The translations under genes and the position numbers were made by a program. A stretch of 64,000 nt of DNA from Poseidonibacter lekithochrous (GTDB taxonomy: Bacteria > Campylobacterota > Campylobacteria > Campylobacterales > Arcobacteraceae): the NCBI RefSeq assembly GCF_013283835.1, contig NZ_CP054052.1, forward strand, positions 2,914,001 through 2,978,000, read 5' to 3'. The notes beneath the pieces were generated by a model that saw only the letters and a list, made by a program, of their open reading frames with translations, was not told where the DNA came from and did not search any database. Numbering within the stretch: the first letter of the stretch is position 1; the number at the start of each line of letters is the position of its first letter. Shown here in pieces: positions 7,901-12,555 of the stretch.

Positions 7901-8734
7901 ATGTTATTAGAAGACTTAAAAGATTATTTAGGCTTTGCAGTTGCAGGAAACTTTGCTAATCACCTAGGGGAAGCTGGTGAGGCAGATGAGTTCGCTGTAA
8001 TTGAAACAAAAGAAAAAGATGCACCAAAAGGAATGTTCCCTTTTTATATTAAAAACCATGAGAGTTTTTTAGGAACATATCCAGTTTGTGATGAAATTAT
8101 ATATACACATGGTAGAGAAGATGAAAACCTTCAAGTAGAAGCTGAAGTAGCTTTGATTTGTGATTTCGTATATGAAAATGAAAAAGTTATTGATATTGTT
8201 CCAAAATATTTTTCAGCCTTTAATGACTGTTCAATTAGAATTCAAGATGGAAATAAACTAAGTACAAAAAAGAATTGGGGAATAAATACAAAAGGTATTT
8301 CACAAGATATTATTGAAATTGATAACTTTACTGAAGATGGTATTTTAAGTAAATATCATATTTCTTCTTTTATTAAAAGAGACGGAATAGTACATGATTA
8401 TGGTACTACCTCATCAGTTAAATCATACTCATATTTTTTCAATCAATTAAAAGATTGGATGATTGATAAACTAAATACACAAGAAGATTGTGGACCTCTA
8501 GAAGAGCTAACTCAATTTATGGGTCAAGCAAAAGATTCAAATGGAATACTGATTGCAGCAGGAGCAACAGCATATACTGATTTTGGAAAGAAAAACTTCT
8601 TACAAAAAGGCGATGAAATATTCGTATATGTATATAATGCCCATGCACACTCTTTCCAAGATATTATGAATGATATGTGTGGAATGGATACTTTCCTTTC
8701 ACAGTGCTCAAAACTACATCAAACAGTTCAATAA
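7901..8734 (+). CDS. Fumarylacetoacetate-hydrolase-fold protein (DUF5718-like)
   Basis: The 277-residue protein shows the landmarks of the FAH fold: VEAEVALICDF (metal-binding acidic strand), FNDCSIRIQDGNKL aligned with the NDvSaRdxQ block, KKNWGINTKG, and the C-terminal FLQKGDEIFVYVYN aligned with FLkpGDxV. FAH-fold enzymes cleave or isomerise acylpyruvate-type compounds with a divalent metal, but the substrate here is unknown. I believe the Campylobacterota family carries the name DUF5718, from memory. It is probably monocistronic. Confidence 0.6.
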   Translation: MLLEDLKDYLGFAVAGNFANHLGEAGEADEFAVIETKEKDAPKGMFPFYIKNHESFLGTYPVCDEIIYTHGREDENLQVEAEVALICDFVYENEKVIDIVPKYFSAFNDCSIRIQDGNKLSTKKNWGINTKGISQDIIEIDNFTEDGILSKYHISSFIKRDGIVHDYGTTSSVKSYSYFFNQLKDWMIDKLNTQEDCGPLEELTQFMGQAKDSNGILIAAGATAYTDFGKKNFLQKGDEIFVYVYNAHAHSFQDIMNDMCGMDTFLSQCSKLHQTVQ

Positions 8735-8735
8735 A

Positions 8736-9290
8736 TCAAGCTTGATTACAAATACAAGATTTATCCTTGTATTTGTAATCTACTATCTCTTCATTTTTAT
8801 TCACTTGAAAAGAACAACACTCATTAAAAACTTTTTTTAATTTTTCTTTTGCTCTTTTTGAATGTGACTTTACAGTTGATAGTTTTATATTTTTTTGTTC
8901 TGAATACTCAATTAGACTTTTTTCATTAAAATACACAGCTTCTAATACATTCTTTTGATTTTGAGGTAACTTATCTATTAATGTTTTTAAACAACATGAT
9001 AATTCATTTATTACTGATTCGTCTATATTCTCTTCAAAAAATAAATCAGTATGTTCTGTACTTGATATTTGTTTTTTTCTAAAATAGTCTGTAATTGTAT
9101 TTCTAGCTATCATATAAAGCCATGATTGAATTTTTTCTTTCTCTTTTAAAGTATCAAAATTTGTATATGCTTTTATAAATACTTCATGTAATAAATCTTC
9201 TGCAATATTTTTATTAGATACATTTTTTAATATAAAATATAAAAGTGGTTTTCTAAAGGTTTCATATATTTCACTAATTGTTTCTTTCAT
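8736..9290 (-). CDS. sigZ: SigZ-like ECF RNA polymerase sigma factor with a Cys-bearing tail
   Basis: The 184-residue ECF sigma factor has region 2 at about 8-75 (AEDLLHEVFIKAYTN, then IQSWLYMIARNTITDYFRKK) and region 4 at about 105-155 (LPQNQKNVLEAVYFNEKSL, STVKSHSKRAKEKLKK). No anti-sigma gene is adjacent. The tail after region 4 carries Cys158, Cys159, Cys179 and Cys181, and Cys99-Cys100 lie in the linker. This makes direct metal or thiol sensing conceivable, though that is inference. SigZ of Bacillus is the closest family I recognise. It is divergent from a Cys-rich 46-residue gene, and its own upstream region has a GCAAC-N17-CGTC promoter-like pair matching that of the partner. Confidence 0.85.
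   Translation of the reverse strand: MKETISEIYETFRKPLLYFILKNVSNKNIAEDLLHEVFIKAYTNFDTLKEKEKIQSWLYMIARNTITDYFRKKQISSTEHTDLFFEENIDESVINELSCCLKTLIDKLPQNQKNVLEAVYFNEKSLIEYSEQKNIKLSTVKSHSKRAKEKLKKVFNECCSFQVNKNEEIVDYKYKDKSCICNQA
8744..8780. other. Strong hairpin inside the 3' end of sigZ
   Basis: A perfect 15-bp stem (8744-8758 with 8766-8780, 7-nt loop) encodes part of the sigZ tail and lies 10 nt past the stop of the convergent FAH-fold gene. Neither strand has a following T-run, so it is a weak terminator at best; it could act as an mRNA end stabiliser. Confidence 0.55.
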
Positions 9291-9314
9291 TTTATTCCTT
9301 CATATATATTATAT

Positions 9315-9340
9315 GACGTAAAAGTAAATAAAAAGGTTGC
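9315..9340 (-). promoter_or_regulatory. ECF-type promoter of sigZ (autoregulation)
   Basis: On the minus strand GCAAC (9340-9336) and CGTC (9318-9315) are 17 nt apart, the canonical ECF -35/-10 geometry, with the RBS AAGGAA and ATG 19-25 nt further on. A TATAAT overlaps just downstream (9313-9308), but its transcript would leave almost no leader before the RBS. Confidence 0.6.
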
Positions 9341-9375
9341 AACTTTTTTAGAAAATTACAAACTTTATAAAAAGT

Positions 9376-9400
9376 GCAACTTTATTTATTTTATTGCGTC
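9376..9400 (+). promoter_or_regulatory. ECF-type promoter of the Cys-rich small protein
   Basis: GCAAC (9376-9380), a 16-nt T-rich spacer and CGTC (9397-9400) stand 33 nt before the ATG. The same two elements occur in the sigZ promoter on the other strand, which points to recognition by the same sigma factor. Confidence 0.65.
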
Positions 9401-9432
9401 TTAGTAGTGAAATTAAATTAAAAGGATATATT

Positions 9433-9573
9433 ATGGAAAATAATAAAACAAACGAAAAATGTTGTGAGATAAAATGTACTTGTGAGAATTGTGATTGTAC
9501 TAGTACTTGTTGTGAAGAGTGTTGTGATTGTTGTAAAGATAATACTTGCTGCTCTGATAATAAATGTTGTTAA
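9433..9573 (+). CDS. 46-residue Cys-rich (metallothionein-like) protein
   Basis: ATG at 9433 with AAAGGA 8 nt upstream opens a 46-codon frame ending in TAA at 9571. Sixteen residues are Cys, arranged as CC pairs and CxC/CxxC units: C10-C11, C15-C17-C20-C22, C26-C27, C30-C31-C33-C34, C39-C40, C45-C46. The rest is Glu, Asp, Asn, Lys and Thr, with almost no hydrophobics and no signal peptide. Such composition fits a cytoplasmic thiolate metal-binding protein, though no established metallothionein family is recognised. It is divergent from sigZ, with a matching ECF-type promoter, and closed by a hairpin. The frame is too short for most ORF cut-offs, so it is likely to be missed by annotation pipelines. 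Confidence 0.8.
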   Translation: MENNKTNEKCCEIKCTCENCDCTSTCCEECCDCCKDNTCCSDNKCC

Positions 9574-9580
9574 ATATATA

Positions 9581-9607
9581 AGGTCAAAAGCTTATGCTTT
9601 TTGACCT
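9581..9607. terminator. Bidirectional terminator between the Cys-rich gene and the chemoreceptor
   Basis: An 11-bp stem (9581-9591 with 9596-9607, one extra T) and a short loop follow the Cys-rich stop by 8 nt and overlap the stop of the convergent chemoreceptor gene. Confidence 0.65.
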
Positions 9608-12555
9608 CTAATTAGTTTTGTGTTTATTACTGCTATATCATTTAAAGAACTGAATAAATCTCCAGTTAAATATTCAATATCTTTTGCTAACACTTTTAAC
9701 TCATCATTATTTGCTTTTCTTGCATTTAAATCCATAAACTCTTGCATTAAATTATGGAATTTACTTTTTCTCTCTTTTAATTTTTTCCATTCATTTGAAT
9801 TAACAAAAACTTTATTTTCTCTTTCACAATCAATTATCCATTTTCCTAATTCTGTATCTTCATTTTTTATAACTTCTACTATATTATATGAATCTAAATT
9901 TCCAAAATACTCTTTTTTCACTTTTATATTATTGTTTTTAAATCTTGATATTTGTTGAATTAAATCAATATCATCAACCATATCATAATATTTATCTGTA
10001 ATTTTTGCTTTTGCAGTAATTCCAATAAGTCTAGATGAAAGATTTGCAACTTCATTTGATAAATTACCTATATTAGCAGAAGTTGCTGCATTTTCTTGTG
10101 TCATTTGATCTAATTCATTAACAGCAGCATTTACTTGAATCATACCCTCTTCTTGTTCTTTAATAGCAGAACTTACACTATCTATAATATCTTTTGTATC
10201 AATAATTTTTTCAGATAAGTTATCATAACCTTTGATCATATCATTTGCAATACTCTTACCTTCATTTGATTTATAACTAGCCTCTTCAACTAATTGTTTA
10301 ATAGTATTAGCAGCCTCTGCTGATCTTCCTGCAAGGTTTCTTACTTCTTGGGCAACAACGGCAAAACCTTTTCCTGCTTCCCCTGCTGTTGCTGCTTCTA
10401 CTGCTGCGTTTAATGATAGAATATTTGTTTGGAATGCAATTTTATCAATTACAGAAATTGCTTCACTAATTGCTTTTACTTTTTCATTAATCTCATCCAT
10501 AGAAGTAGATGTTTTACTAGCTAAAGTATTCCCACTTACAGCAGAAGAGTTTAATTCATCTGAAATTGTTAACATCTTAATAACATCATTAGAACTTGAT
10601 TTCATATTACTTGTGATTTGTTCAATTGAAGCAGCTGTTTCTTCTAGTGATGAAGCTTGTTGATTTGCACTAGTAGATAAATCAAGAGAAGATTTACTTA
10701 ATACTAAAGTATTAGACTCTAACTCTTTTCCAGCATTAGTAATCATTGCCACAAGTTGTGAAATAGATTGTCCTAATAATACTGAACCTGAGAATAGTGT
10801 TCCAAAATCTCCGTATAAACCATCTTTTTCTTCCCCTTTTAATCTTGTACTATAATTACCAGTAGCATAACCATCTAGTACTTTATTAATATTACTTACT
10901 TTATTATATGTATTATTAATCATGTCATTAATAATAAGTCTTAGTGATTCTACTTCATTTGTAGCACCACTTTGATGAATTTTGTACTCTAAAAAACCAT
11001 TAGATACTTTTTGAACCACATCACTTAATTCAATTACAACTTTTTTATCTTGCTCAATAATATCTTTAATTTTTACAATTTGAGTATTCATATCTATTGT
11101 CATTAAAGCAAACTCATCACTACCATTAATAGGCATTGCATTTAAATACTCTTTTTCTCTACTTACATAAGAGAAGAAATATTCTAAACCTTCTTTGAAG
11201 TTCATCATCGCATTTACAATTTTTCTAGTCATAAAAAATAGCGAAACAAAAATAAGAGTTAAAATTACAACAATAACAGCTATTAATAAAATAAAGTTCT
11301 CTTGAATTTGTGATGTTCTATTCTCCATTAGAGTTAACAAGTTATTAGTTACTTGATTTTGTAAATTTTCTAATTGTTTAATTCTTTGTATAGAATACTT
11401 ATCCCATACTTTAATATCTCCACCAAAGATATTTTTACTTAAACTATTTATTGCTTTAATTGCTCTTGAGTCATCTATTGAAGTATATGCATCTATCTCT
11501 TCAACACTTGAGCCTTTATCAATCATAGCTTTTAATTCAGACGCTGTAAGTAAATATGAATCAAATACTCTTTTTATTTTCTTTAGTAGTTTTTTCTCTT
11601 TTTTTGTTACATTTTTAATTCTAGAATATTTTTTGATATCACGAATTAAAGAAGTATGTAGTTGTTCTACCTTTTTAAGATATTTTCTATCTCCTCTTAA
11701 AACATAGTTTTTAAAATTATGGATTAATCCACCATATCCAGCAACCTCTTTTATGTGAGATAATAACTGTACTTTAGTATTTTTAAGAAAAACTATTTTT
11801 CTAAGTTTTTCTACTTCTTTTGTAGAGTTTGAAGTAAGTATTTTTTCATATGTTTTTAATTCTTCTTTTGATGCATTTTTCTTAAATGTAGAAAGATATG
11901 TATCTTGTGAGGCAACAAGTGAACTAAATAGATAATAACTCTCACTAGATATTCTTCCTAAATCAAAGATATTACGAACTACTGTTGATTCCTTATAAGC
12001 TTTTTCAGAAGTATTTATTAATGATATTAAAGATTCTGAATATTTAGAAATCTTTCCATTATTAGAAAATGCAACTAAATCATCTGAAAAAGTCAACAAA
12101 GTATCAATTATATTTGTATAAAACTTATCTGTTCTTTCTTCATCTATTTGAGAAGATAAGACTTGTTCTCTAATATTTTTTAATTGTTTTATCTCTTTTA
12201 AAACCTTCTCTATTTTTGGCACAAGTTTTTCATCATAATTACTAGCATTAAAGTTTTGAGTGAATTCTTTATAAAGTTTTTTATATTTATCACTTTCTTG
12301 AACCTGAAATTTTAGTTCATCTTTAAAACTGTTTCCATAAGAAGATATATAATTAAGAGAGTAACTTCTCTCTTTTTGTAATTGAACTAAAAAACTATTA
12401 CTATTTACAACAAATTCTAAATAGTTAATAGTTTTAGTCATACTGTTTTTTTCTTCATATTTAATATATAGTGAATTAATTGATAAAACAATTATACTAA
12501 TGATTGGTAGAAGGAGAATTAATAGTATTTTATTTTGAAGCTTTAGGTTATTCAT
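9592..12555 (-). CDS. Methyl-accepting chemotaxis protein with NIT-type sensor and degenerate CZB tail
   Basis: The 987-residue protein starts with a membrane helix (about 9-29), then a large helical periplasmic region whose beginning ([17 protein letters not shown]) matches the NIT nitrate/nitrite-sensing domain. A second helix (about 417-442) and a HAMP-like segment follow. The signalling hairpin is unmistakable near residue 708 ([36 protein letters not shown]). The last 100 residues resemble the CZB zinc-binding domain (ELGKWI near 901, later KFHNLM), but the expected first His and the Cys before LGKW are not there. It acts in the membrane array through CheW/CheA, which are not in this window. 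Nitrate or nitrite as ligand is inference from the NIT domain. Confidence 0.88.

Follow-up and report, generated by a model that had tools for sequence, protein, structure and literature searches.

A divergent gene pair encoding a SigZ-like sigma factor and a cysteine-rich microprotein in Poseidonibacter lekithochrous: a probable metal-stress circuit

The 64,000-nucleotide stretch of the Poseidonibacter lekithochrous genome analyzed here (hereafter, the window; the genome is a single contig of 3.57 Mb) contains two genes that point away from each other across a gap of 142 nt: sigZ, for a predicted ECF sigma factor, and an open reading frame (ORF) for a Cys-rich microprotein. An earlier reading of this DNA from the sequence only had proposed such a divergent module, and our analysis strongly supports it, with the amendment that the interval given at the time (9296-9573) leaves out the sigZ gene itself. 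The locus comprises the following features:

8736-9290, minus strand: sigZ, SigZ-like ECF sigma factor of 184 aa with regions 2 and 4
9296-9301, minus strand: RBS-like GAAGGA of sigZ, read from the sequence
9315-9340, minus strand: predicted SigZ-type promoter of sigZ, with GCAAC (-35) at 9340-9336, a 17-nt spacer and CGTC (-10) at 9318-9315
9376-9400, plus strand: predicted SigZ-type promoter of the microprotein gene, with GCAAC (-35) at 9376-9380, a 16-nt spacer and CGTC (-10) at 9397-9400
9423-9426, plus strand: RBS-like AGGA of the microprotein gene, read from the sequence
9433-9573, plus strand: metallothionein-like microprotein ORF, 46 aa with 16 Cys
9581-9607, plus strand: hairpin terminator-like element 3' of the microprotein gene (-13.2 kcal/mol, z -3.45)

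The terminator-like hairpin is common to the microprotein gene and the convergent gene at 9592-12555. In two related loci (L013 and L018), the RBS of the microprotein gene is GGAG, which is stronger than the AGGA of the window. The divergon is flanked in the window by a DUF5718 gene and a chemotaxis-receptor-like gene; a single nucleotide separates the ends of sigZ and the convergent DUF5718 gene (8734-8736).

The sigZ product consists of sigma regions 2 and 4 (Pfam Sigma70_r2, 8.9e-14, and r4_2, 1.6e-9) and lacks region 3, the composition that defines ECF sigma factors. Its best NCBIfam matches are the SigZ families NF007215 (8.4e-50) and TIGR02959 (5.4e-42), and in both cases the score remains below the curated membership cut-off (169 against 212 bits and 143.5 against 168.65 bits, respectively), so that the label "SigZ-like", already chosen in the sequence-only reading, is the right one. 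Several phyla have proteins annotated as SigZ, for which the open-access literature that we searched gives no function.

The window sigma factor has the four tail cysteines noticed earlier (C158, C159, C179 and C181) and, in addition, a pair at the junction of the sigma2 and sigma4 domains (C99 and C100) that had gone unmentioned. All of the 21 mapped SigZ sequences have Cys100 and at least one tail cysteine; the vicinal pair in the tail is interrupted in one of them (L009), and the terminal cysteine is near-universal, being absent from the Priestia protein (in our alignment, A1, the window sequence is without Met1, so that the numbering is one lower, and L009 is left out). The second junction cysteine, C99, is found in 8 of the 8 complete sigma factors encoded in divergons compared to none of the 13 other SigZ proteins, which have one cysteine at this place; given that the eight are related sequences, C99 is a marker of the clade rather than the outcome of eight independent events. 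The AlphaFold model of the sigma factor, built from the single sequence, is too poor to place the Cys groups (pLDDT 54).

In the microprotein, the existence of which as a 46-residue, 16-Cys ORF was confirmed, the cysteines are arranged in CC, CxC and CxxC motifs, and there are neither histidines nor aromatic residues. Small size and very high Cys content are shared with the bacterial metallothioneins SmtA/BmtA, NmtA and MymT; unlike these, the microprotein contains no His and shows no sequence match in Pfam, NCBIfam or PDB, the described metallothionein families included. A profile search (A2) across 104 genomes of the family placed the microprotein in five, namely the window genome and four genomes of another genus by inferred taxonomy (G087-G090); the profile was built from these five homologs, so that their matches arise by construction and the information lies in the absence from the other 99. 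The homologs are 46, 50, 55, 39 and 39 aa long and contain 16, 17, 19, 14 and 14 Cys, respectively. Between the window and G090 proteins, all 14 aligned cysteines are kept (two by synonymous change) and 13 of the 25 other positions differ. The possibility of a chance ORF was dropped in view of the conservation in five genomes and the Cys-selective constraint.

The matching ECF-type promoters and the geometry of autoregulation that had been suggested for this locus are strongly supported: GCAAC-N16/17-CGTC precedes both starts, with CGTC located 24 nt upstream of the ATG of sigZ and 32 nt upstream of that of the microprotein gene. In the entire genome, GCAACN{16,17}CGTC has two matches, both in this divergon, compared to seven for the reversed control, and first-order shuffling of the intergenic region produced a site in 0.015% of cases and never, in 20,000 shuffles, one on each strand. 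Judging from these sequences, two facing promoters of the same type would serve sigZ and the microprotein gene. When ten related loci (window included) are compared, the strict motif is found on the partner side in all ten and on the sigZ side in eight, G379 and G486 being the exceptions, so that autoregulation may not be universal. The extended consensus, compiled by eye, is approximately GTGCAACYWTTTTT...CGTCWTA. Additional matches to the motif in G087-G090 fall within ORFs in all cases checked (one, near a contig end, was not placed), and those in the GC-richer genomes of the second family discussed below are close to the control counts in most cases. Across 397 genomes of the phylum, the window is the sole match to the strict paired-promoter pattern, which is uninformative on the second family, in which each spacer is 17 nt long and the gap between the facing elements is 11 or -2 nt.

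The five family genomes that encode the microprotein all have a sigma factor of this clade, the divergent layout and both promoters (the sigma genes of G089 and G090 extend to a contig end), and neither gene was found in the nine other listed genomes of the genus to which the window belongs. The flanks of the divergon vary: G089 and G090 have genes resembling leuC and mobA (read from ORFs), and G088 has genes for an MCP and for a CDF transporter. In G088 (L049) and G087 (L050), there are two SigZ paralogs about 10 kb apart, one of which is in the divergon and the other (L015 and L016) behind a LysE-type translocator gene. The search of genome contigs with the window protein yielded one weak gammaproteobacterial match only, and the plasmid search yielded only SigZ-like proteins with about 36% identity or less, neither of the two annotated loci having the layout.

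Sigma factors of the same clade, with the linker Cys-Cys and the Cys tail seen in the window clade, also occur in another family of the order, where five genomes (G379, G495, G508, G486 and G469) encode them; in the tree, the support for the divergon clade is high, albeit not starred (94/87). In these five genomes, the promoter faces a divergent zf_CopZ metallochaperone gene; the best NCBIfam match of the G495 protein is CopZ_Nterm_CC ("putative iron-sulfur cluster-binding metallochaperone"), below the cut-off. Since the sister-family sigma factor and promoter face zf_CopZ instead, we infer that the switch was kept and the metal-binding output exchanged, so that the same type of sigma factor and promoter would drive a CopZ-type metallochaperone in the second family. 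In G495 and G508, an undescribed 90-aa CxCxC protein, with no Pfam match over the cut-off, is encoded between the promoter and zf_CopZ (L060, 2162-2434; L061, about 2161-2433), and its start lies about 32 nt from CGTC, a distance equal to that of the window microprotein. At the G379 locus, a gene for CDF metal efflux and sigZ overlap, and thioredoxin-type, ArsP-type, arsC-like and arsB genes follow.

More distant SigZ genes lack the motif and adjoin genes for LysE, arsenite methyltransferase, DUF2703 or zf_CopZ, in part repeating the metal and metalloid themes. The expectation that homologous sigZ genes come with the motif and a Cys-rich neighbor is thus borne out within this sigma clade and fails in other SigZ clades, which are without both; motif and partner characterize the sub-clade rather than SigZ as a whole. 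In several genera (L006-L011, L015, L016 and L056), a LysE-type translocator gene recurrently precedes a SigZ gene on the same strand, and no GCAAC-CGTC motif was seen in the LysE-SigZ loci scanned. In two genomes (L057 and L058, 639-1403), SigZ is followed by a same-strand ArsM gene that scores over the NCBIfam cut-off for arsenite methyltransferase, and in a family member outside the divergon clade (L014, 849-1394), zf_CopZ lies downstream of SigZ on the same strand.

The absence of an adjacent anti-sigma gene, reported previously for this locus, is confirmed in the window and extends to its relatives. A scan of flanking ORFs longer than 70 aa within about 4 kb, by a simple motif and hydropathy test for the ZAS motif and transmembrane segments, detected no anti-sigma candidate at the nine loci that it covered (all of the ten but G495). 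This arrangement resembles that of CorE and CorE2 of Myxococcus xanthus, members of the former ECF44 that are now assigned to ECF238 or left unclassified. CorE is a sigma factor that depends on copper, has a Cys tail that binds metal and lacks a linked anti-sigma (PMC3107203). CorE2 answers to Cd and Zn; both the Cys tail and a CXC motif in the sigma2/sigma4 linker are indispensable to CorE-like factors (PMC8999054). The common features are the lack of a linked anti-sigma, the C-terminal Cys tail, a Cys motif at the sigma2/sigma4 linker, metal-homeostasis neighbors, a -35 element with AAC and a spacing of 16-18 nt (PMC3107203, PMC8999054).

The window sigma factor nevertheless differs from CorE and CorE2 in sequence family, being SigZ-like, and in the cysteines themselves: the tail reads CC-x19-CxC, compared to the invariant cysteines 181, 184, 192 and 194 of CorE (PMC3107203), and the linker has CC at 99-100 in the place of CXC. 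The targets differ as well, a metallothionein-like peptide or zf_CopZ here and a multicopper oxidase and P1B ATPases there, and the response to metal is a putative one in the present system. With the same layout and different Cys motifs, the window sigma factor may function in the manner of CorE while not belonging to that group. With the SigZ family (NF007215 and TIGR02959), it shares the conserved junction Cys and tail CC; it is set apart by the additional junction Cys of its clade and, compared to the other SigZ clades examined, by its own promoter motif and a divergent Cys-rich or CopZ partner.

Taken together, these observations lead us to favor, with some reserve, the interpretation of the locus as a two-gene divergon for metal or metalloid stress, in which an autoregulated, anti-sigma-free sigma factor following the CorE logic drives a metallothionein-like buffer. 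The sigma factor would recognize both promoters and thereby activate itself and its target; its cysteines (the junction Cys-Cys and the tail CC...CxC) would capture a thiophilic metal or metalloid, which would shift the sigma factor into the active shape, as in CorE, so that no anti-sigma would be needed; and the microprotein would then chelate the ion, ending the signal. Given the CorE precedent (PMC3107203, PMC8999054), it is plausible that sensing is done by the sigma factor itself and that the peptide is a metal binder. Because the same arrangement stands beside metal-handling genes in distant relatives, the pair is probably a self-contained circuit for metal alarm and mop-up. More tentatively, this SigZ clade could be a one-component metal-sensing sigma factor, its regulon limited to itself and one metallothionein-like peptide; this would be a sense-and-sequester loop centered on the 142 bp of promoter DNA that the two genes share, with a modular switch.

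The circuit had originally been envisaged as responding to metal or thiol stress, and it is the metal response that the neighbors in relatives (zf_CopZ, CDF and ars genes) support. A circuit that senses thiol, redox or sulfur stress (disulfide, HOCl, persulfide or electrophiles), with the microprotein as a thiol buffer or sulfur carrier, appears unlikely, even if it deserves consideration: the vicinal pairs C99-C100 and C158-C159 could form disulfides or react with oxidants, and the flanks of the G379 locus include thioredoxin and DsbD-type genes. Furthermore, in the gig/RpoQ-RsqA system of Cupriavidus metallidurans, an ECF sigma gene adjoins an operon related to copper/gold and thiols, and RpoQ ties an ECF sigma factor to thiol homeostasis, although this system includes the anti-sigma RsqA and the control of gig by RpoQ has not been demonstrated (PMC11022561). 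However, the relatives have partners specific to metals (zf_CopZ, CDF, arsB/arsC/ArsP and ArsM), and the Cys density and CxC/CxxC/CC pattern of the microprotein are typical of metallothioneins.

We consider it quite improbable that the sigma factor is an ordinary ECF factor controlled by an unlinked anti-sigma or by its own transcription only. The junction Cys and tail CC are kept even in SigZ clades with other neighbors that are without the divergon motif or partner, so that the cysteines could be structural, and an anti-sigma gene could be encoded elsewhere in the genome. Arcobacter butzleri indeed has anti-sigmas for all seven of its ECF sigma factors, but each of these is adjacent (PMC3445524), whereas none is adjacent at the nine divergon loci checked.

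The chances are slim that the microprotein is the regulator, a small Cys-bridged anti-sigma that would let the sigma factor go once metal or oxidant occupies the cysteines of the microprotein. Within the family, it is always divergent from this sigma factor, which carries cysteines matching its own, and is absent without it; yet, in the sister clade, the unrelated zf_CopZ protein occupies the same position, which accordingly does not require this peptide, and the non-Cys residues of the microprotein drift, unlike those of a binding surface.

Finally, the suggestion that the GTTGC/GCAAC repeats are half-sites of a repressor operator rather than two promoters, prompted by the palindrome GTTGCAAC that the element forms in the window and G469, is hardly credible and was dropped, because the gap between the facing -35 elements varies (35, 32-33, 11 and -2 nt across loci) whereas the GCAAC-to-CGTC spacing is constant at 16-17 nt and the CGTC-to-start range is narrow, so that the conserved unit is the promoter. 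In one locus (L063, 1405-1412), a single palindromic GTTGCAAC serves as the -35 element for both divergent promoters.

The described bacterial metallothioneins are controlled by SmtB/ArsR or RicR (CsoR-type) repressors, not by a sigma factor (PMC8790569, PMC10141476), and our search of the open-access literature found no description of a metallothionein-like gene under an ECF sigma factor. With a two-gene locus and a motif unique in the genome, the SigZ promoter, regulon and signal are directly testable. If the metal-stress interpretation is correct, the microprotein gene would be, as far as the literature searched shows, the first metallothionein-like gene under sigma control, and the SigZ-like proteins of this clade would constitute a second lineage of sigma factors that have a cysteine tail and no anti-sigma.
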